From contig JAFLSS010000002.1 in the NCBI GenBank assembly GCA_022510805.1, positions 21,675-85,674 of the forward strand: 64,000 nt of DNA, given 5' to 3'. The translations under genes were made by a program, and so were the position numbers. The notes beneath the pieces are model-generated. The model worked only from the letters and a program-made list of their open reading frames with translations. It was not told where the DNA came from and made no database searches. Below, one piece after another: positions 5,038 to 17,712 of the stretch. The stretch is from Akkermansiaceae bacterium. Its GTDB lineage: Bacteria; Verrucomicrobiota; Verrucomicrobiia; Verrucomicrobiales; Akkermansiaceae. Each line of letters starts with the position of its first letter. Within the stretch, counting starts at the first letter, position 1.

Positions 5038-6648
5038 TTACTCTGAGCTCTGTGAGGAGGGGGCAGCGCTGCCGATGATTTGGAGGAAGCGCTCCCGGAG
5101 CTCGGGGCTTTGCGGGAGGAGGGTGAGTTCTCCCTCCCGGAGGTGCAGGCCGCCTTGCAGAAGCTCCTCAAGCACCTGCAGGTACTTGAACCCCTCCGCC
5201 TGCTGCTCCGGGTCCAGCTCCGCAGGATCCGCCTGAGCATAAGGGGCAAAGCCCGCCTTCCAGCTCTCGAGGACGGAGGGCGCGCCGGCTTCTTGCCGGT
5301 TCGGATCTGCTCCGGCTTGCAAGAGCCAGAGCGTTTTTTCCGGGGCATCGGGGGTGCTGCTGCGGACAAGTTGGGCCAGCAGGCGCGTGGCGGCTTCACT
5401 GCTGGGGAAGCTCAGCCTGCCGTGGGTGTGGAGGAGGCGCAGCGGCGGGAGGCTGCCCGGGGTGGTGATGACGCCTGCCGCGAGGTCGAGCAGCGGGGTA
5501 TCCGCTGTGCCGTGTCCCTGAAGGCGCAGCCACTGCTCCGCCGCGTTGGGAGTGAGCGGCTCCGGCAGAGACTCCTCCTGCACGGGGCGCGGCTGCTGAG
5601 GCGTGGTTTGGAGGGAGCGCACCCAGCGCTCTTTGTCCTCCGCGTCCTCATACTCGCAGTCGGTTGCCGCGCAGAGCAGGAAGGTGAGCAGCTCCTCATC
5701 GCCGGTGTCGAGGTAGCCCTGCTCGGCCAAACTCTGTGCGAGCGGCAGAGAGCCATCATATGCCAGCAGAGAGGCCACATCCCGCTTGGCGCGTGCGCTC
5801 TGCGGGCGGGCGCCATGCTGCAGCGCCCACTGCAAAGAGCGCCCGGGTATAATCACCCCGGATGCCGCGGCTCCCTCCTCCTCATCCGCGGTCTCAAGCG
5901 CCTCGGCGTCTAGCGCATCCGCCTCTGCCGCAAGCTGCAAGGCCAGATCCGGCTGAGTCGAGATGACAGCGCCATGGGAGACAAGAAAATCAAGCAGCGC
6001 GAGCCGCTCGGCCTGCGGCGGCGGGGCATCAGCCTCCCACGAGCTGCGCGCACCCAGCACACAGCCCCAGAGGGGCAGCGGCTGAGGCGTCAGCAGGCAG
6101 TAGGCATTGGGGTCGCACCCGCGGCGCACGAGCTCGCGGGTGAGCTCCAACTGCTGCGCCAGATACGCGAAATGAGCGGCATGAGCTCCGCCGGGCTCCA
6201 CAGCATCCACCTTACCTGTGCCGGCCACGCGGCGCATCATGAGGTGCAGCTTGCGTATCTCGGATCCCGCGGTGAGCTCGGCCTTGTAACCATATATCCC
6301 GGTGAAAACGATGGCGCGGCACGACAGAGCAAAAGTCTTGAAGGGGGAGTCGCTGAGGTAGGCTTCCGTAAACAGCGACACGCAGTAGTCCCCGAGGCTT
6401 TGTTCCTTGTTCGGCCCCGTCTGGTATGAGTAGAGGTAGTCCTCGGAAATGTAGTCATTCACCTGCCGGAGCTGCTCAAACTGCTGCGGCGTCCAGCTCG
6501 GGTGGTGAGTCTGGCCGAGGTCGCTCTTGCTGATGGGCACGAGATTGAGGACACTACACGCCACGCCCGCCAGCACAAGGATGACAAAGACAATCAGCAG
6601 GACTTTGGGCAAGAGACTCTTGGGCGGTGTGGAGGCAGGGGGATTCAT
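5038..6648 (-). CDS. Membrane-anchored ankyrin-like protein
   Basis: A 536-aa protein with a short cytoplasmic N-terminus, one transmembrane helix (KVLLIVFVILVLAGVAC, residues ~15-31) and a large C-terminal domain. It contains degenerate ankyrin-like helical pairs, such as TRELVRRGCDPNAY, ALLDFLVSHGAV and TLWLLQAGADPN. It is clearly paralogous to the 49909-51090 protein: both share a PQAERL...LL..HGA block, an IPG.....L.HG block and a GYLD block in the same order. It starts 43 nt after the peptide-ABC ATPase gene on the same strand, so it may be the last gene of that operon. No enzymatic motif is seen; a protein-binding role is inferred from the fold only. Confidence 0.7.
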   Translation of the reverse strand: MNPPASTPPKSLLPKVLLIVFVILVLAGVACSVLNLVPISKSDLGQTHHPSWTPQQFEQLRQVNDYISEDYLYSYQTGPNKEQSLGDYCVSLFTEAYLSDSPFKTFALSCRAIVFTGIYGYKAELTAGSEIRKLHLMMRRVAGTGKVDAVEPGGAHAAHFAYLAQQLELTRELVRRGCDPNAYCLLTPQPLPLWGCVLGARSSWEADAPPPQAERLALLDFLVSHGAVISTQPDLALQLAAEADALDAEALETADEEEGAAASGVIIPGRSLQWALQHGARPQSARAKRDVASLLAYDGSLPLAQSLAEQGYLDTGDEELLTFLLCAATDCEYEDAEDKERWVRSLQTTPQQPRPVQEESLPEPLTPNAAEQWLRLQGHGTADTPLLDLAAGVITTPGSLPPLRLLHTHGRLSFPSSEAATRLLAQLVRSSTPDAPEKTLWLLQAGADPNRQEAGAPSVLESWKAGFAPYAQADPAELDPEQQAEGFKYLQVLEELLQGGLHLREGELTLLPQSPELRERFLQIIGSAAPSSQSSE

Positions 6649-6691
6649 GGCGAGGGGGTTCCTTTATCGGGAGAGGCTGGAGTGTGGTTGC

Positions 6692-7684
6692 TTATGGGGC
6701 ATCAGCGGTGCACAGCGGGCAGGCTTCCACAAAGTGCGAGTTGCCGATGTGGACGAACGAGGGGCGCTCCAGGAGGGTGGAGCCGCTGCGGCCCAAGCGC
6801 TGGCAGAAGCGGCAGCCGGGTGCATATTCATGCGGCGCGGCCACCACGCCGGGGATGGTGGGCAGGTGGGTCTTGCGCGTGTATTCCGGGCGCGGCATGG
6901 CTGCGAGCAGGGCGCGTGTGTAGGCGTGGCTGGGGTGGGCAAAAAGCTCTTCCACGGGGGCGGCTTCCACCATGCGCCCGGCGTACATGACCCACACGAT
7001 GTCACAATTCTGCGCGATGACGCCCAGATCATGCGTGATGAGCAGGGAGGCCGCGCCGAGCTCGCTGCGTAGTTCCCGCAGGAGGGAAAGCACTTGGTGC
7101 TGCACGGTGACGTCGAGCGCGGTGGTGGGTTCATCGGCAATGATGAGCTCCGGTCGGCAAGCGAGAGCGATGGCGATGAGCGCGCGCTGCCGCATGCCGC
7201 CTGAGAGGGCGTGCGGGTAGTCGCTCACGCGCTCACGAGGGGCGGCAAAGTGCACAAACTCCAGCAGGCGAATCGCTTCCTCCCAGGCCTCTTCAGCGCT
7301 GATCTTGCAGTGCAGCATGAGCACCTCTGAGATCTGGTCACCAATGCGTTGCACAGGATTGAGCGCCTGCATGGGCTCTTGGAAAATGGTGCCGATGCAC
7401 CCGCCGCGGATCTCCCGCAGGCGCTCGGGCGCCATGGTGAGGAGGTCCTCCCCCTTGAAGTTCACACACCCGGAGAGAATGCGCCCGCGGGGCCGGGGCA
7501 GCAGGCGCACGAGGCTCATGGCCGTGGCGCTTTTGCCGCAGCCGCTCTCCCCGACAATGCCCACACACTTGCCGTGTGGGATGTCGAAGCTGACATCCTC
7601 CACCACGGGGAAGAGGCCGTGCTCGGTGTGAAACGCGGTGGTGAGGCCGCGTATTTCCATGAGGTTGGATGGGCTGATTTCCAT
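6692..7684 (-). CDS. Peptide ABC transporter ATPase (OppD/DppD-like)
   Basis: Powers uptake of peptides through the YejB/YejE-like permeases encoded upstream. The 330-aa protein has Walker A GESGCGKS (residues 45-52), signature LSGGMRQRA, Walker B LIIADEP and the H-loop LLITHDLG. The C-terminal oligopeptide extension carries four cysteines (CRFC and CPLC), as in ATPases that hold an iron-sulfur cluster there. The ATG abuts the TAA of the binding-protein gene with no gap. Only one ATPase is encoded. The OppF partner, or the second half of a YejF-type double ATPase, is absent from this locus. Confidence 0.9.
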   Translation of the reverse strand: MEISPSNLMEIRGLTTAFHTEHGLFPVVEDVSFDIPHGKCVGIVGESGCGKSATAMSLVRLLPRPRGRILSGCVNFKGEDLLTMAPERLREIRGGCIGTIFQEPMQALNPVQRIGDQISEVLMLHCKISAEEAWEEAIRLLEFVHFAAPRERVSDYPHALSGGMRQRALIAIALACRPELIIADEPTTALDVTVQHQVLSLLRELRSELGAASLLITHDLGVIAQNCDIVWVMYAGRMVEAAPVEELFAHPSHAYTRALLAAMPRPEYTRKTHLPTIPGVVAAPHEYAPGCRFCQRLGRSGSTLLERPSFVHIGNSHFVEACPLCTADAP

Positions 7685-9919
7685 TTAAGACTGAGGGGGC
7701 AAGGGGATGTTGCGTTCGACTTCGGGGAAAGAGCGGCCGCTGCTGCGGGCGCGCAGCGTCTCGCGCTTCATCTGCTCGTCGATCCAGTACAAGTGGCTGT
7801 CCAGCGGGTCGTAATAGTGGGGCGGGCAGAAGCGGGTCTCCGGCGTGTCAGGCCAGCGCAGCCAGCGCCACTGGGCAAAGCGCCAGTAGCCGGAGGACCA
7901 GCCGGGCACCCAGGCCGCCGTGTCGGCAATGCGCTGCTGCACAAGGTGCTGCGCCGCGATGGCCTCTTGCTCGGTGGTGGCGGAGCGGGCGGCGAGGATG
8001 GCGCGGTCGAGCTCCGGCGAAGCGGTGGAGGTGATATTGCTCGTGCCGGCCATGGGCGAGCCGTCGGCCCGGAAGGCATACTGTGAGAGGAAGAACTGGG
8101 AGGCATCCGGCACGGGCGGGGTGAAGCCCCAGGAGAAGATGCAGACGCTGTGCTGCTTGTTCTTGACTTTGAGGTAGAAGACGGTGTCGTCCATCTGCTC
8201 GAAGCGCAGGTCCAGCCCGCAGCGGGCGGCGTCCTCGCGCAAGAGATTCATGGCCGCCGCGTAGGAGGAGTCAATGCGTGAGCTCACCACCACCTGCAGG
8301 CGTGTGCCATCCGGCCGGTGCAAGATGCCATCTGCCCCCTCCTCGGTGAAGCCCGCCGCGGCAAAATAGGCCCGCGCTTTGTCGGGATCATAGGGGAGCG
8401 CGCGGATGTGCGGATTGGTGAAGGCGCCGAAGCCGGAGAAATAGGAGGAGCCGCGCCTGTAGTCCCCGCGGAAGAGGGTGTTGATGACGGCTTGGATATG
8501 AAGCGCGTGGTGAAAGCCGAGCCGGGCGTCGAGCGAGTCGAATGGCGCGCGGGCGCAGTTGATATGGAAGCCGAAGCAGTTGCGCGGCCAGAGGTTGTTG
8601 AAGTGGATGCGCTGGATGTAGCCGCGGTGGACAGGCTCGATCTCCAGCCCCTCATACCAGAAATCCGCATCCCGCGCCGAGAGGGCATCGAGCTCGCCGA
8701 TGCGGAACAGCTCGCGGATCTTGGTGTCCTCTGCGATAAAGGTGTAGACAATGTGGTTCACATTGCAGGAATACTTTGTGTATTTGCGCTTGGCAGCCCA
8801 CCAGTTTTTGACGCGGGTGAGCATGATCTGCCGCCCCATGATCAGCCCCTCCGGGTCCACGGCGTAGCCGCCGGTGGTGGGCACGGGGCGCCAGAGGTAG
8901 CGCGTGGGGTAATCCGGCCCGAACTCGGCGTAGAAGCGGGTGCAGGCGGCCGGCAGGGCGGCGGCGTAGTAGGCCGGGTAGGGGCGCGGCCCCGCGAGGG
9001 TGATGGCCAGGGTGCTGTCGCCGTAGATGCAGATGCGGGCGAAGTTGCTGAGGTAGAAATCGCGGTAAAAGGGCTCGACGCTGTAGGGGGAGGTGCGGAT
9101 GAAGAGGGAGGCGACAAAATCGCGCGTGGTGAGGCGGTCGCCATTGGAGAAGCGGGCTTGGGGGTCAATGTGGAAATACACCGTGCGGCCATCGGGGGAG
9201 AGGGCCCAGCGGTCTGCCGTGCCGGGGATGAGCTCTCCCGTGCCGGGATGGAGGCGCACGAGCGGCAGGTCGATATCATCATACAGGTAGCGCCGCGTGT
9301 TGTTGTTGCTGTTGGGGCCGAACACGCGCAAGGTGTTGGGGAAAGAGCGCTGAAGCGCGAGCCGCAGGGTGCCTCCCTTGAGGGCGGCGGGGTCACCGAG
9401 CTCCGGGGCATCAGCCCCATGCTGCCAGTTGAGCCCTGCCGGTATCTCGGATTCCGGGCGGTACACCAGGTAATCGCCGAGGCTGATGCGCTCGAGGAGC
9501 TGCTTATGCTCTGCCCGGGCAAACTGGAGGCGGGCTTGCGCTCCCTCTGCATCGGCACTGCCGGCCTCTGCTTCCTGAATCTGCGCATGTGCCTCAGAGA
9601 TGCACTGCTCCTGCTCCTGCAGGGCTGTGTCCAAGTAGTCGCGCACGCGCTGATTCCAGCTTGCGGTGAAACCACTGAACCCCGGCGGCATGCGCCACGC
9701 GCGGGCGTAGCCCGGCACGTCTTCTTGGCTGCCGAAGGCGAGCGGCATACTCTCCTCCGCCGGTGGCTCCCAGTCCGGCCCGGAGGAGCCGGTGCCCCTG
9801 TCCCCACAGCCGGTGAGCCAGCAGAGCCCCAGGAGCAGCAGCCCGAGCCAGCGCACGCAGAGCCGCGGCGCGAGGGCGCGGCGGCGGGTCGGAGCAGGGG
9901 CAGGGGGGCAGGCTGGCAT
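7685..9919 (-). CDS. Peptide-binding lipoprotein (SBP family 5, YejA-like)
   Basis: The extracytoplasmic receptor of the peptide importer. It is 744 aa, longer than typical family-5 binding proteins (500-600 aa). A basic N-terminus and hydrophobic helix end in LTGC (Cys38), a lipobox. The mature part starts with an extra helical region of ~100 residues rich in Glu, Gln and Ala. The family-5 fold follows, with GGTLR, a segment LVRLHPGTGELIPGTADRW, and a late WGFTPPVPDASQFF segment as in YejA homologues. Gene order and 12-nt spacing after yejE support a single operon. Confidence 0.85.
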   Translation of the reverse strand: MPACPPAPAPTRRRALAPRLCVRWLGLLLLGLCWLTGCGDRGTGSSGPDWEPPAEESMPLAFGSQEDVPGYARAWRMPPGFSGFTASWNQRVRDYLDTALQEQEQCISEAHAQIQEAEAGSADAEGAQARLQFARAEHKQLLERISLGDYLVYRPESEIPAGLNWQHGADAPELGDPAALKGGTLRLALQRSFPNTLRVFGPNSNNNTRRYLYDDIDLPLVRLHPGTGELIPGTADRWALSPDGRTVYFHIDPQARFSNGDRLTTRDFVASLFIRTSPYSVEPFYRDFYLSNFARICIYGDSTLAITLAGPRPYPAYYAAALPAACTRFYAEFGPDYPTRYLWRPVPTTGGYAVDPEGLIMGRQIMLTRVKNWWAAKRKYTKYSCNVNHIVYTFIAEDTKIRELFRIGELDALSARDADFWYEGLEIEPVHRGYIQRIHFNNLWPRNCFGFHINCARAPFDSLDARLGFHHALHIQAVINTLFRGDYRRGSSYFSGFGAFTNPHIRALPYDPDKARAYFAAAGFTEEGADGILHRPDGTRLQVVVSSRIDSSYAAAMNLLREDAARCGLDLRFEQMDDTVFYLKVKNKQHSVCIFSWGFTPPVPDASQFFLSQYAFRADGSPMAGTSNITSTASPELDRAILAARSATTEQEAIAAQHLVQQRIADTAAWVPGWSSGYWRFAQWRWLRWPDTPETRFCPPHYYDPLDSHLYWIDEQMKRETLRARSSGRSFPEVERNIPLPPQS

Positions 9920-9931
9920 GGTGGGGGGGGC

Positions 9932-11527
9932 TTAGGAATAGTGGTCAGCGCTGTGCGGGTCAATCGCCTCGCGCACGGCCTCGCCGATAAAGGTGATGAG
10001 CAGCAGCAGCCCCACCAAGGCGCCGAATGCGGCAGAGGCAATCCACGGTGAGGAGAGTTTGGAGAGGCCATCATTGAGCAGGCGGCCCCAGCTGGCGTAT
10101 TGCTCCGGCAGGCCGAAGCCCAGGTAGTCCAGCGAGGTGAGGGAGAGCACCACGACCGCTACGCTGAAGGGGATGAGGGTGACGATGATGCCGGTGAGAT
10201 TGGGCAGGATGTGGCGGAGCAGGATGTGCAGCGGCCCGGCGCCCATGACTCGTGCTGCTGCCACATAGTCGCGTGTTTTTTCTTTGAGCGTGGCCGTGCG
10301 GATGAGGTAGGTCATGGGCATCCACCCCAGGAGCGCCATGAGCAGCAGGGTCACAAACATGCCGCGCATCTCCAGCGGCACAAAATCTGCCAGGATCATG
10401 ACGATGAAGAGGAAGGGCAGCTGCGAGAGGATTTCGATGCCGCGCTGGGTCACCAGGTCGAACACGCCGCCCCAATAGCCCATGAGCATGCCGAGTGTCA
10501 GGCCGATGCCGTAGATCACGGGCAGGTAGAACAGCGCGGCTTTGATATTCACCTGCAAGCCGCCGAAAAGCAGGGCTGCGATGTCGTTCCCCCTGCTGTC
10601 GGTGCCCAGCAGGTGCCCCCCCGTGAGCGGCGGCGCCGGGTGGTAGTGGATCAGGTAATGATCCACATTGCTTTGATTCAGAAAGGCCTCCAGACTCCCC
10701 TCGCCCTCATAATGCTCACTCACGAGCTTGCCGTGGCTCCACGAGGCGCTGTAGACCTCACGGCGGTCGGGGCTCCAGCCTTGCACGAGCCCATCGGGCT
10801 CTCCCTTGCGGTAGCGGATGCGCAGGTGGATATCTCCATTGGGGTAGAGCCGGCAGGCCTGCCCGTCATACAGCGTGGCCGGCTCCCCCGCAGCATACAA
10901 TTTACCCTCTTTGGCCGGCAGCAATTCTGTGGGGAACGGGGCGGCATCTGTCGTGGGATCCCACGGAATGAGCGGCATGAGCACGATCTGAGGCCCCCCC
11001 GGGCTGCCCAGCTTTGCCTGCAACTGGCGGTAATCTGTCTCTGCCAGGGCGGCGTTGCCGCTCAGCCCGAAAACGGCGCCGGGCAGCATGTTGCGGCGAA
11101 ATGCGGGGAAGTGCCACTCCCCCGTGTCGGAGAGCACGGCGAGTGCGCGCTTGCCGACGAGGACTTGATCCATCGCCGCGAGTGAGAGGATGCCCATCAG
11201 GATCAGCAGGGAGCCATAGCCTCGCTTGAGGCTCTTGAAGTGGCGGACTCGCCGCGCGGCCTCCGGCGGCAGCTTGTGCCTGCCGCGGCGGCACAGCCCA
11301 TAGAGCCCCGCCAGCGCCAGCAGCAGCATCACCACCCAGCCGAACCACTGCACCCTGCCGTCTGCCGCCAGCGCGGGGCACCACTCTGCGCGGCATGAGA
11401 GAACCGGGAGTTCGCGGCTGGCGGTGAAGGGCCAGGAGATGGTGGGCAGGAGCCAGCCGCGCAGCTCTGCCACCCCGCCCAGCAGGGCGGTGAGAATGAG
11501 AAGCAGGGCTGGCCATTTGCGTTTCAT
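9932..11527 (-). CDS. Peptide ABC permease (YejE/OppC-like) with large periplasmic insert
   Basis: The inner-membrane permease of the importer. It is 531 aa, against about 340 for E. coli YejE. The C-terminal ~250 residues are a standard OppC/YejE permease with the EAA-type loop (AARVMGAGPLHILLRHILPN). Before it come an additional pair of N-terminal helices and a soluble insert of ~180 residues. Within the insert, residues ~220-275 read as two MORN_2-like repeats (LYPNGDIHLRIRYRKGEPDG, then SASWSHGKL). The start overlaps the yejB stop by 4 nt (ATGA), indicating translational coupling. Confidence 0.85.
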   Translation of the reverse strand: MKRKWPALLLILTALLGGVAELRGWLLPTISWPFTASRELPVLSCRAEWCPALAADGRVQWFGWVVMLLLALAGLYGLCRRGRHKLPPEAARRVRHFKSLKRGYGSLLILMGILSLAAMDQVLVGKRALAVLSDTGEWHFPAFRRNMLPGAVFGLSGNAALAETDYRQLQAKLGSPGGPQIVLMPLIPWDPTTDAAPFPTELLPAKEGKLYAAGEPATLYDGQACRLYPNGDIHLRIRYRKGEPDGLVQGWSPDRREVYSASWSHGKLVSEHYEGEGSLEAFLNQSNVDHYLIHYHPAPPLTGGHLLGTDSRGNDIAALLFGGLQVNIKAALFYLPVIYGIGLTLGMLMGYWGGVFDLVTQRGIEILSQLPFLFIVMILADFVPLEMRGMFVTLLLMALLGWMPMTYLIRTATLKEKTRDYVAAARVMGAGPLHILLRHILPNLTGIIVTLIPFSVAVVVLSLTSLDYLGFGLPEQYASWGRLLNDGLSKLSSPWIASAAFGALVGLLLLITFIGEAVREAIDPHSADHYS

Positions 11528-12846
11528 TCGAAGGTGATGCGCGGGTCGAGGTAGGCGACCCAGATATCAGAGAGGAGGTTGCCGAGGATGATCATGAACG
11601 AGCTGAGCAGCAGGGTGCCCATGATGAGCGAGTAGTCCTTGTCCATGAGGGCTTGGTAGCTGAGCATGCCGAAACCCTGAATATCGAACACGCGCTCGAT
11701 GAGGATGGAGCCGCCCACCACGGAGCAGATGACGCTGCCGAGATTGGAGGCTATGGGGATGAAGGAGTTGCGAAACGCGTGCTTCCACACGGCCCTGCGG
11801 TAGGGAACTCCCTTGGATACGGCGGTGCGCATGTAGTCCGCAGAGAGGTTCTCCAGCAGGTTGTTTTTCATCATCATGGTGGTCATGGCCAGCGCCCCCA
11901 CCACATAGCAGGTGAGCGGCAGCACGGTGTGCATGGCAAGATCCGCCAGCTGCTCGCCGAAGCGCATGGTGGAAAAGCCCGGGCTGGTGAGCCCGTAGAG
12001 CGGGAAATACTCCAGCCGCGCCCCCAAGTACACCAGCAGAATGGCCCCCAGGGCAAAGCCCGGTACTGCATAGCCGACAAAGATGAACAGGCTGCTCACG
12101 CTGTCGAAGAGGGTCTTGTGCTTCAGCGCTTTGTATACGCCGAGGGGGATGCTGAGCAGGTAGGCTATCAGCGCGCCGAGGATGCCGAAATAAAAGGAAA
12201 CAGGTAGGCGTGTCGCCATCATTTTGAGCACGGGCTCATTGTATTTGTAAGAGCGCCCCAAGCTGCCCTGCAACAAGCCGTTGAAGGCCTTGCGGCACAT
12301 CACCGCCCGCCAGCGGGTGTGTGCGGCTCGCTCGGCGATGAGCCCCGGGTCTGTGACATAATGCCGCCGCGCCCAGGCTTGCGCGCGCTCCTGGGGGGAC
12401 TCGATCCGCACGCGCCAGCGCTCGCTCTCAAACCACTCCGGCGCGTCAAATAGCGGCTCGCTGCCCTTGCGCCGCACTTCCAGCAACCGGGGCTCGCCGC
12501 CCTTGCCGCTCGTGGTGAGGTAGGCGCTGGCGCCGGGGGAGCTGAACTCTGCCTTCACCACCTCTACCTGGCTGCGCCGCAAGCCAAGCCATTGCAAATA
12601 AGCTTTCCATGTGGGTTCATGCAGGTTGAAGAGCTCCTCAAGCCGCTCCATATCCTCCTCCGCCATGCCGGCGCCTGAGGGGGCGCTGCCGGCTTTATCC
12701 CCCATCAACGCGCCGATGGCTTGCTCCTGCATGATGCGGTCTACCGGGCCGCCGGGGACGAGGCGCGTCAGGCAAAACACAATGAGCGTAACCCCTATCA
12801 AAGTGATAGGAGTCATCAACAACCGCCTGACAATATATGCCCTCAT
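11524..12846 (-). CDS. Peptide ABC permease (YejB/OppB-like)
   Basis: First gene of the peptide importer operon, 440 aa. The N-terminal helix (RRLLMTPITLIGVTLIVF) and the VPGGPVD motif are typical of OppB/YejB proteins. The C-terminal half contains the permease core with an EAA loop (MRTAVSKGVPYRRAVWKHAFRN) and the ending IWVAYLDPRITFE. A polar insert of ~110 residues lies between helices 1 and 2 and accounts for the length above E. coli YejB (about 360 aa). A promoter is visible at 12885-12913, and a purine-rich GGGAGAG lies upstream of the ATG. Confidence 0.88.
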   Translation of the reverse strand: MRAYIVRRLLMTPITLIGVTLIVFCLTRLVPGGPVDRIMQEQAIGALMGDKAGSAPSGAGMAEEDMERLEELFNLHEPTWKAYLQWLGLRRSQVEVVKAEFSSPGASAYLTTSGKGGEPRLLEVRRKGSEPLFDAPEWFESERWRVRIESPQERAQAWARRHYVTDPGLIAERAAHTRWRAVMCRKAFNGLLQGSLGRSYKYNEPVLKMMATRLPVSFYFGILGALIAYLLSIPLGVYKALKHKTLFDSVSSLFIFVGYAVPGFALGAILLVYLGARLEYFPLYGLTSPGFSTMRFGEQLADLAMHTVLPLTCYVVGALAMTTMMMKNNLLENLSADYMRTAVSKGVPYRRAVWKHAFRNSFIPIASNLGSVICSVVGGSILIERVFDIQGFGMLSYQALMDKDYSLIMGTLLLSSFMIILGNLLSDIWVAYLDPRITFE

Positions 12847-15232: not shown

Positions 15233-16732
15233 ATGAGTGACAACAGCTCCACCCAGTCCCCGCCGGCCAAATCCTCCAACCCCATCTTCAACTACTTCTC
15301 TGAGTTCGGGGTTCTCAAGGAGTGCGGCAAAAACTTCTGGCTTACCAACTTCATCCAGTTCTTTGATGGTTTGTCGTACTTCACGCTCATCATCGTCTTC
15401 ACGCTCTTCCTGAAGGAATACTGCGGATTCCGGGATGCGGATGCCCCCTATTGGGTAGGCATGTACACGCTCTTTGTCTCCCTGTTTGTGTTTGCCGTGG
15501 GGTCCATCTGCGATATCATCGGCCTGAAGCGCACCTACCTGGTGGGCTTCTCGCTGCTCATCACCGGGCGTCTTGTGATGGCGCTGGGGTCAGACTTCGG
15601 CAAATTCATAATGGAACTCTCGCAGGATCAATCACGCTACATCGTGATGGCCGGCATCGGCATCATGGCTTTCGGCACGGCCTTCATGAGCCCCTGCATC
15701 ACCACCTCCATCCGCCGATTCACCACCCTGAGGGCACGTCCCACAGGGTTTAATTTTTATTACCTCTTCATGAATATCGGCGCTCTGCTGGCCGGCTTTG
15801 CCATCGTGGATCCCATCCGCGAGCAATGCTCCGGCCCGGAGGGGCTTTATTGGGTGATCAACTTCGGCACCTGCTGCAATGTGATTGCCTTCATCTTCAC
15901 CCGCTTCATCAATGAGGATTTCTACGCGGTGGAGGAGGAGAAGATCTCCCGCGGTCAGGCAGAGCAGCGCCGCCCCCTCCAACTCATCGCCGAGGTGATC
16001 CGCGAGCGGCCGTTCCAGAAGCTGCTGGTCTTCCTTTTCCTCACGCTGGGTGTGCGCCTGGTGTTCACTCTTCAATTCATGATCATGCCGCAGTACTACA
16101 CTCGCACCATCGGTGACGACTTCCAGCTCGGCTTCATGAACTCGCTCAATCCCTTTGTCATCATCTCCGGCCTCATCCTCATCATCCCCATCATCAACAA
16201 ATTCTCCACCGTGAAGTTGATGATCTCCGGCATGTCCATTTCTGCGCTCTCGCTGGTGCTCATGGCCGTGCCGCCGGAGTGGTACTTCATCATCCCGGGC
16301 ATCGAAACCATCAGCCAGGCCTACTTTGTGGCCATCTTCACTCAGATCATCGTCTTTGCCTTCGGCGAGCTGTTGTTCTCCCCCCGCTTCTCGGAGTATG
16401 TGGCGCGCGTGGCGCCCAAGGACAAAGTTGCCTCCTACATGTCCCTGGCGGGTCTGCCCATGTTCATCGCCAAGCCTATCAACGGCGTGGTGGGCGGCCT
16501 GTTGGTGTCCAAACTCTGCTACGATGGCATCGCCGCCAAGATGGACACCGGCCATATCTCCTTCTTCGATTCGCCGGAGTTCATGTGGACCATCTACCTG
16601 ATCATGGCCATCATCTCTCCGCTGGCCATCATCCTCACAAAAGACATGTTCGTCTCCGACCACCCGGAAGAGGACTCCGGGGCTGTGGGTAGTGATGACA
16701 ATACGGACAGCGCCGCCCCGCAAGAAGCATAA
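15233..16732 (+). CDS. MFS transporter, POT/peptide-transporter-like
   Basis: A 499-aa polytopic inner-membrane protein with about 12-14 predicted helices. The segments NFYYLFMNIGALL and FGELLFSPRFSEY resemble conserved regions of the proton-dependent oligopeptide transporter (POT/PTR2) family. The ExxER motif of classical POT proteins is not obvious, so a POT-like divergent MFS subgroup is the safest call. It lies between ilvD and an ankyrin gene, with gaps of 27 and 26 nt, probably in one transcript. The substrate is unknown; peptides are the first guess. Confidence 0.72.
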   Translation: MSDNSSTQSPPAKSSNPIFNYFSEFGVLKECGKNFWLTNFIQFFDGLSYFTLIIVFTLFLKEYCGFRDADAPYWVGMYTLFVSLFVFAVGSICDIIGLKRTYLVGFSLLITGRLVMALGSDFGKFIMELSQDQSRYIVMAGIGIMAFGTAFMSPCITTSIRRFTTLRARPTGFNFYYLFMNIGALLAGFAIVDPIREQCSGPEGLYWVINFGTCCNVIAFIFTRFINEDFYAVEEEKISRGQAEQRRPLQLIAEVIRERPFQKLLVFLFLTLGVRLVFTLQFMIMPQYYTRTIGDDFQLGFMNSLNPFVIISGLILIIPIINKFSTVKLMISGMSISALSLVLMAVPPEWYFIIPGIETISQAYFVAIFTQIIVFAFGELLFSPRFSEYVARVAPKDKVASYMSLAGLPMFIAKPINGVVGGLLVSKLCYDGIAAKMDTGHISFFDSPEFMWTIYLIMAIISPLAIILTKDMFVSDHPEEDSGAVGSDDNTDSAAPQEA

Positions 16733-16758
16733 CCTCTCTCCTGATATTCAGTACGACT

Positions 16759-17712
16759 ATGAATGATTCATCTTCCCAAGAGATGCCGAAAACCAACTGG
16801 GGCCCCATTATTAAGGACCTGTTCATCCTCATGTGCGTGATGGGCACTATTGGCTTCCTCTGCAAGCTCGCGATGGAGCCTTTCGAAGAAAAAAGCCCCA
16901 CGGATAGCCTCGTTTCCCTCATCCGCAAGGGTGATGTGAAGCTCCAGGATCAACAAGCTTCCGACCAGCATTTCCTCAAGGAACTTAATATCTTGAATGC
17001 AAAAGTTGACCGGGATAAAATGGGGGTGAATATCTCAGACCGCACCGGGCGCACGCCGCTCATGTGGGCTGTATATGCCAACTTCAATAATCCCCAAGAC
17101 GCCCTCAAGGTGGACGCAAAGCGCCTGTACTACGTGTTCTCCCTGCTGAAGGCCCCCAACATTGATATCCACCAGCGGGATATAGACGGCTTCACGGCCA
17201 TGCATTGGGCGGCTTGGAGCGGCCTGCACTACAATCTCACACTCCTTGCTAACGCCGGGGTGGATGTGAATGCTCGTGAGAATGCGGGCTACACGCCTCT
17301 CATGCTCGCCGCGATGCGCGGCAATGCGGACGCTGTGGCCGCGCTGCTGGCGCTGGGGGCGGATGCATCGCAGGAGCGAATCGGCCGCACCGCCGCTGAT
17401 CTGGCTCAGGAGGCGTGTGCAAGCTACGACAAGAACAGCGCTTTCTTCTACTCCCTCATCTACTCCGATGAGCGTGCTGCCAACTATGACCGCACGCTCA
17501 AACTCCTGAAGGCGGGCAAGAGCGACACGCCTGCAATGACGAATGACGAGCTGTACCAAGTCATGCTCAATGCCGTGCAGGAAAGCGAGAAGACCGGCCA
17601 AAAGGCAACTGAGCAAGCCGAAGAGAAGAAGCAGGAGCTCGAGGTAGAGAAGGCCGCTGCCGCGCCGCCTGACACGGATGCCGACCAAGCTCCCTCCGCC
17701 CAGGTTGAGTGA
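16759..17712 (+). CDS. Membrane-anchored ankyrin-repeat protein
   Basis: A 317-aa protein with an N-terminal transmembrane anchor (LFILMCVMGTIGFLCKLA, residues ~22-39) and an ankyrin region (residues ~90-220). The clearest repeats include RTGRTPLMWAVYANF, DIDGFTAMHWAAWSG and NAGYTPLMLAAMRG. A Lys/Glu/Ala-rich tail follows, ending DADQAPSAQVE. It is not closely related to the 5038 and 49909 proteins, whose repeats are more degenerate. The last codons of this gene are duplicated at 18963-18998, beyond the AbiE island. Target unknown. Confidence 0.82.
   Translation: MNDSSSQEMPKTNWGPIIKDLFILMCVMGTIGFLCKLAMEPFEEKSPTDSLVSLIRKGDVKLQDQQASDQHFLKELNILNAKVDRDKMGVNISDRTGRTPLMWAVYANFNNPQDALKVDAKRLYYVFSLLKAPNIDIHQRDIDGFTAMHWAAWSGLHYNLTLLANAGVDVNARENAGYTPLMLAAMRGNADAVAALLALGADASQERIGRTAADLAQEACASYDKNSAFFYSLIYSDERAANYDRTLKLLKAGKSDTPAMTNDELYQVMLNAVQESEKTGQKATEQAEEKKQELEVEKAAAAPPDTDADQAPSAQVE

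Follow-up and report, generated by a model that had tools for sequence, protein, structure and literature searches.

A MORN_2-like domain in the periplasmic part of a YejE/OppC-like peptide importer permease of Verrucomicrobiales

We describe an ABC permease that carries a MORN_2-like domain between two of its transmembrane (TM) helices. An earlier note on this DNA had described the permease as YejE-like and had seen MORN_2-like repeats in its periplasmic insert; this proposal is borne out by a profile built on the insert (insert HMM), by profile-profile comparison (HHalign) and by the hairpins of the predicted structure; we regard the homology to MORN_2 proteins together with the periplasmic position as nearly certain. 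The insert was gained once, in an ancestor of most Verrucomicrobiales, and no loss was observed. The note knew of no characterised Opp or Yej permease with such repeats, and none of this kind turned up in the papers searched. As far as these papers go, a MORN_2-like domain in the permease of a peptide importer is a previously unnoticed architecture.

Results

The window (the whole stretch of 64,000 nucleotides that was analysed) contains an importer operon of order B-E-A-D, all of it on one strand:

11524..12846, minus strand, YejB/OppB-like partner permease of 440 aa, upstream of the insert-bearing permease and overlapping its start (profile matches)
9932..11527, minus strand, YejE/OppC-like ABC permease of 531 aa, carrier of the insert (BPD_transp_1, E = 2.8e-23; fold matches to OppC structures)
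7685..9919, minus strand, family-5 binding protein (YejA/OppA-like) with lipobox LTGC and a helical N-terminal extension (SBP_bac_5, E = 5e-40)
6692..7684, minus strand, OppD-like ATPase (profile matches)

The combination of a BPD_transp_1 domain, a partner permease, a family-5 binding protein and an OppD-type ATPase identifies a type I peptide importer of the OppC/DppC/YejE type, peptide transport being its putative function as judged from the sequences. The top NCBIfam match of the permease was the microcin C permease YejE model NF011596 (161 bits over residues 296-527), which stays under the curated cut-off of 439 bits for the YejE subfamily, and its closest PDB sequence was E. coli OppC. 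The binding protein gene lies within the same operon as the insert-bearing permease; the gene order is kept in related loci and reads B-E-A-D-F in more distant relatives. Named relatives were mostly Akkermansia, A. muciniphila and A. glycaniphila among them, and a literature search for a phenotype of the Akkermansia importer found none. An OppF-type ATPase is missing from the window operon and from the operons of close relatives. The best OppF copy was found on another contig (G000:C91:5378-6394) and shares 62% identity with the F that genome G004 encodes within its operon. In place of F, OppD is followed by an ORF that weakly matches ankyrin (window positions 5038-6692). Elsewhere in the window, the plus strand encodes an MFS/POT-like transporter and then an ankyrin-repeat protein (15233-17712).

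With 531 residues against the 341 positions of the E. coli YejE model NF011596, the permease is about 190 residues longer, as the earlier note had stated. The note assigned this whole excess to the insert, but alignment and the AF2 model divided it into two additions, an N-terminal extension of about 85 residues, which accounts for about half, and an insert of about 100 residues (196-295):

11273..11527, minus strand, N-terminal extension, residues 1-85, with two predicted TM helices, 2-22 and 61-79 (AF2 model, alignment)
10943..11161, minus strand, YejE's own periplasmic segment after TM1, residues 123-195, common to the insert-less sisters (alignment)
10643..10942, minus strand, whole insert, residues 196-295, missing in seven insert-less sister permeases (empty-site alignment)

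The insert is placed after TM1 and before the GTDxxGxD motif and TM2, and is bordered by MPLVPWDP..D (around residue 195) and HPAPPLTGGHLLGTD (around residue 296). The empty site is clean in the insert-less sister permeases L141, L142 and L179-L183, which come from the same order and a homologous operon. The N-terminal extension with its TM pair was absent from most insert-less relatives in the alignment; gain of the two helices together with the insert is not strict, as L179, which lacks the insert, also begins with a hydrophobic extension.

The side on which the insert lies is predicted to be periplasmic, since a basic stretch at residues 80-104 fits the cytoplasmic side (sequence and AF2 helices). 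A periplasmic domain would agree with a tether of the kind suggested by the earlier note, the importer being held in position by repeats that attach to peptidoglycan, to lipids or to some other protein of the envelope; lipid binding by MORN repeats has also long been assumed (PMC7725318). No direct support was found for such contacts. The binding protein is lipid-anchored by its own lipobox, lipoprotein binding proteins being present in insert-bearing and insert-less sister systems alike, the insert has two repeats only, and TbMORN1, which bound single phospholipids, did not bind to membranes (PMC7725318). We judge a tethering role to be quite improbable.

Within the insert, a leader is followed by two repeats and a last strand:

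10865..10930, minus strand, domain leader, residues 200-221, consensus LEERDGLLYEPGSDKPYSG (insert HMM against MORN_2 proteins)
10793..10864, minus strand, MORN_2-like repeat 1, residues 222-245, with G222, Y228, G231, Y239 and G242 (profile columns; strands 222-227 and 233-240)
10721..10792, minus strand, MORN_2-like repeat 2, residues 246-269, with G246, W251, Y259, W263 and G266 (profile columns; strands 243-251 and 257-264)
10643..10720, minus strand, last strand (267-273, starting inside repeat 2) and linker to TM2, with F282 invariant (AF2, profile columns)

The units that had first drawn attention to the region, LYPNG...YRKGEPDG and SWSHGKL, correspond to permease residues 227-246 and 262-268, both inside the interval originally given for them (10700-10880). 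Key positions of the two repeats are spaced by exactly 24 residues (G222/G246, Y239/W263, G242/G266). Offset 24 was also top-scoring in an internal-repeat autocorrelation, yet it was matched by 882 of 2000 shuffles and is thus not significant alone.

The profile search that the earlier note proposed (MORN_2, PF07661) was negative for the permease and for 66/66 orthologs (E ≤ 10), as well as for their consensus and the whole genome. This negative result is weak evidence, because single divergent copies fall below so short a model (22 positions, Pfam cut-off 29.6 bits); the genuine MORN_2 arrays of this order reach just 22-28 bits per copy. Standard family searches miss the insert for the same reason. 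We therefore turned to profile-profile comparison and, as the cut-off was not reached, call the domain MORN_2-like and not a PF07661 member. The sole match of the insert in an NCBIfam search, to an amidase, was dismissed as chance. The insert HMM was built from residues 200-276 of 66 orthologs and searched against all 261 ORFs in the neighbourhood of MORN_2 loci that had been chosen independently. It matched 13/13 MORN_2 ORFs (E from 9e-15 to 9e-5, best domain 39.7 bits) and 0/248 other ORFs at E ≤ 1, while 50 column-shuffled insert profiles reached a maximum of 10.3 bits. The alignment with MORN_2 proteins spans the leader (L-ERxG-xY-xx-pYxG), which also begins MORN_2 arrays, plus both repeats. 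HHalign of the insert against the MORN_2 protein alignment gave 97.7% with a score of 72, as against maxima of 4.2% and 20 for 30 shuffled profiles. Common descent with MORN_2 proteins is thus indicated by both comparisons. Among PDB sequences, the first match of the insert profile was the MORN part of SET7/9, at E = 1. An unrelated β-meander that resembles MORN_2 by convergence would be in keeping with the silent Pfam model and with an internal repeat that carries no significance by itself, but the HHalign match extends over the leader and both repeats, the insert HMM retrieves MORN_2 proteins exclusively and the structural neighbours are MORN/YwqK proteins. Convergence is already largely refuted and has a negligible probability in our view.

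An AF2 model of the permease, built on 66 aligned orthologs, had a mean pLDDT of 88.8 and found its best fold matches in OppC/DppC. In the insert it predicted strands at residues 222-227, 233-240, 243-251, 257-264 and 267-273 with pLDDT of about 90-97, and AlphaFold applied to the insert alone (83 residues) returned consecutive β-hairpins with a pLDDT of 96.7. The predicted structure has the consecutive hairpins expected of MORN_2 repeats; a model devoid of them, which would have spoken against the original proposal, did not occur. In a Foldseek comparison with viral models, 30 matches to the insert model reached E ≤ 0.001; of the 50 viral-model matches listed, nearly all named ones were MORN-repeat or YwqK proteins. 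Against the PDB the matches were weak (E 0.015-0.1) and comprised the β-meander domains of GtfB, SdgB and TarM and the MORN domain of SET7/9. Several of the GtfB, SdgB and TarM neighbours, in which the β-meander is an add-on domain, come from peptide-bound entries, and Yej systems are able to import muropeptides (PMC9790009). Both points would fit a MORN groove that holds the substrate, with extended peptides or muropeptides lying along the β-sheet before being passed to the binding protein or the pore. So would H234 and R236, which are conserved among Akkermansiaceae-type orthologs and share one strand face with R240 according to β alternation. In deeper members, however, H234 and R236 are not conserved, so that the basic stripe H234, R236, R240 was rejected as a clade-wide signature; the PDB matches are weak and a specificity site is already supplied by the binding protein. 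We consider substrate holding improbable.

Relatives of the permease are encoded in 73 of the 76 genomes of the order. Full-length orthologs throughout the genus carry the insert, as do most of the families sampled in Verrucomicrobiales, and A. muciniphila has it too; the repeat pattern is thus kept in orthologs, where its absence from close ones would have told against the earlier note. In a maximum-likelihood tree of 66 permease cores of the order, both with and without insert, the insert-bearing proteins (48/48) formed one clade (100/98; one change; 100% of 200 bootstrap trees), outside which fell the seven insert-less nearest-sister proteins, the A-B-E-F YejE proteins and other OppC proteins. 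In a one-contig genome of 2.65 Mb from the same genus, the permease (L191, G040:C1:2207898-2209483) is split in two frames of 434 and 207 aa, either through a sequencing error or because of a frameshift. When the phylum was searched with the profile, the only permeases with the insert were those of Verrucomicrobiales; the other matches were three MORN_2-like non-permease proteins of further families (G105, G138, G101), read as MORN_2 repeat proteins; the profile was Akkermansiaceae-weighted and favours Akkermansia relatives, and absence elsewhere does not follow from this search. Genome G050 (Verrucomicrobiales) has many MORN_2 arrays on few contigs (L111-L130), several with signal- or lipoprotein-like N-termini.

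G222, G242, G250 and F282 of the insert were invariant, and R240 was found in nearly all members. Mean pairwise identity was 40% in the insert compared to 50% in YejE's own periplasmic part and 50-68% in the rest of the protein, and features outside the MORN structural residues varied from family to family. Such low identity and drift could reflect a passive acquired domain, which would pack on YejE's own periplasmic segment and stabilise the fold with no specific partner. Its retention by every clade member across families, and the fixation of changes in the adjacent motif, argue against this explanation, to which we assign a low probability.

The motif in question, the OppC motif GTDxxGRD-x3-(S/A)R-x5-R, lies directly after the insert and before TM2:

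10553..10606, minus strand, GTDSRGNDIAALLFGGLQ, residues 308-325, OppC motif that has lost the GRD arginine and gained the GGLQ glutamine (alignment counts)

The GRD arginine was found in 0/48 insert-bearing versus 22/22 insert-less permeases, and the glutamine of GGLQ (GGxQ) was fixed in all 48 insert-bearing ones. In the larger ortholog set, R occupied position 314 in 0/66 and Q position 325 in 66/66. Loss of the arginine and fixation of the glutamine map onto the same branch as the insertion. The arginine is usual and not universal, since M. tuberculosis DppC has H at this position (GHD), and it therefore provides no criterion for exclusion.

Discussion

In E. coli DppABCDF, DppA caps both permeases, the scoop of DppB sits in the DppA cleft and the TM1-TM2 periplasmic regions differ between the two permeases (PMC12136057). 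Structurally solved MORN repeats are modules of protein-protein interaction (PMC7725318). Profiles, structure prediction and the tree show that a divergent MORN_2-type domain, in which a leader precedes two hairpin repeats of 24 residues and a last strand, entered the periplasmic TM1-TM2 region of the C-type subunit once. It adjoins the site at which the binding protein docks in type I peptide importers. We propose that it is an interface between proteins: it may widen the platform that the C-type subunit offers for docking, add to the scoop of the B-type subunit, keep the lipoprotein binding protein above the pore and help to seal the outward-facing cavity. It could also have taken over or displaced a role of the GRD arginine, whose loss falls on the same branch. 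For this best explanation as a whole, i.e. a single MORN_2 capture, a docking interface and the replacement of the arginine, we see about even chances. Docking of the co-encoded binding protein is the most economical reading of the insert's role; on this analysis it is a tentative proposal to which we would give slightly less than even chances. A bolder version, in which the C-type permease also engages the binding protein through the captured MORN_2 domain, with capture and loss of the otherwise nearly universal arginine forming one switch to a new mode of docking or gating across Verrucomicrobiales, seems unlikely.

Two features were considered for co-gain with the insert. The N-terminal extension of the binding protein is a probable helical hairpin (residues ~80-148) found only in some families of the insert clade; strict co-gain with the insert was rejected, as the extension is missing in some insert-bearing systems. 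Strict co-gain of the large periplasmic region of the B-subunit was likewise rejected, this region occurring without the insert too.

To our knowledge, hardly anything is known about the function of bacterial MORN_2 repeats. In the importer they occupy a definite position within a machinery whose cycle is known, and removing a single domain would test their role. For Verrucomicrobiales, among them the gut mucin specialist Akkermansia muciniphila, the insert is also the mark of a redesigned peptide import that spans the lineage.

Among known systems, YejE of the microcin C/peptide importer YejABEF has the same permease fold and is the best NCBIfam match, and its periplasmic segment after TM1 aligns between the permease described here and the order's own YejE proteins. 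It differs from our permease, which has an MORN_2-like insert of about 100 aa, two extra N-terminal TM helices and no GRD arginine. YejABEF is moreover encoded as A-B-E-F with a fused double ATPase, whereas the gene order here is B-E-A-D(-F) with separate ATPases; true A-B-E-F operons, with an ATPase of about 585 aa, are also found within Verrucomicrobiales (L143, L144). OppC/DppC of E. coli and M. tuberculosis (8z21, 8z1y, 8j5q, 8wd9) are the closest solved permeases (TM-score to target 0.67-0.75) but have neither the insert nor the N-terminal TM pair; E. coli OppC bears the arginine of GRD and M. tuberculosis DppC has GHD, while our permease is without this arginine. The MORN domain of SET7/9 (1h3i, 1mt6) is the best PDB sequence match to the insert, in register, and is among the top fold matches, but SET7/9 is a nuclear methyltransferase with eukaryotic MORN repeats, unlike the insert. 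MORN_2/YwqK-family proteins (PF07661) resemble the insert in both the leader (LEERxGxxYxxGSDxPYxG) and the hairpin repeats, by HMM, HHalign and Foldseek; whereas the YwqK type is free-standing, the insert consists of two divergent repeats, none over the Pfam cut-off, inside a membrane transporter.
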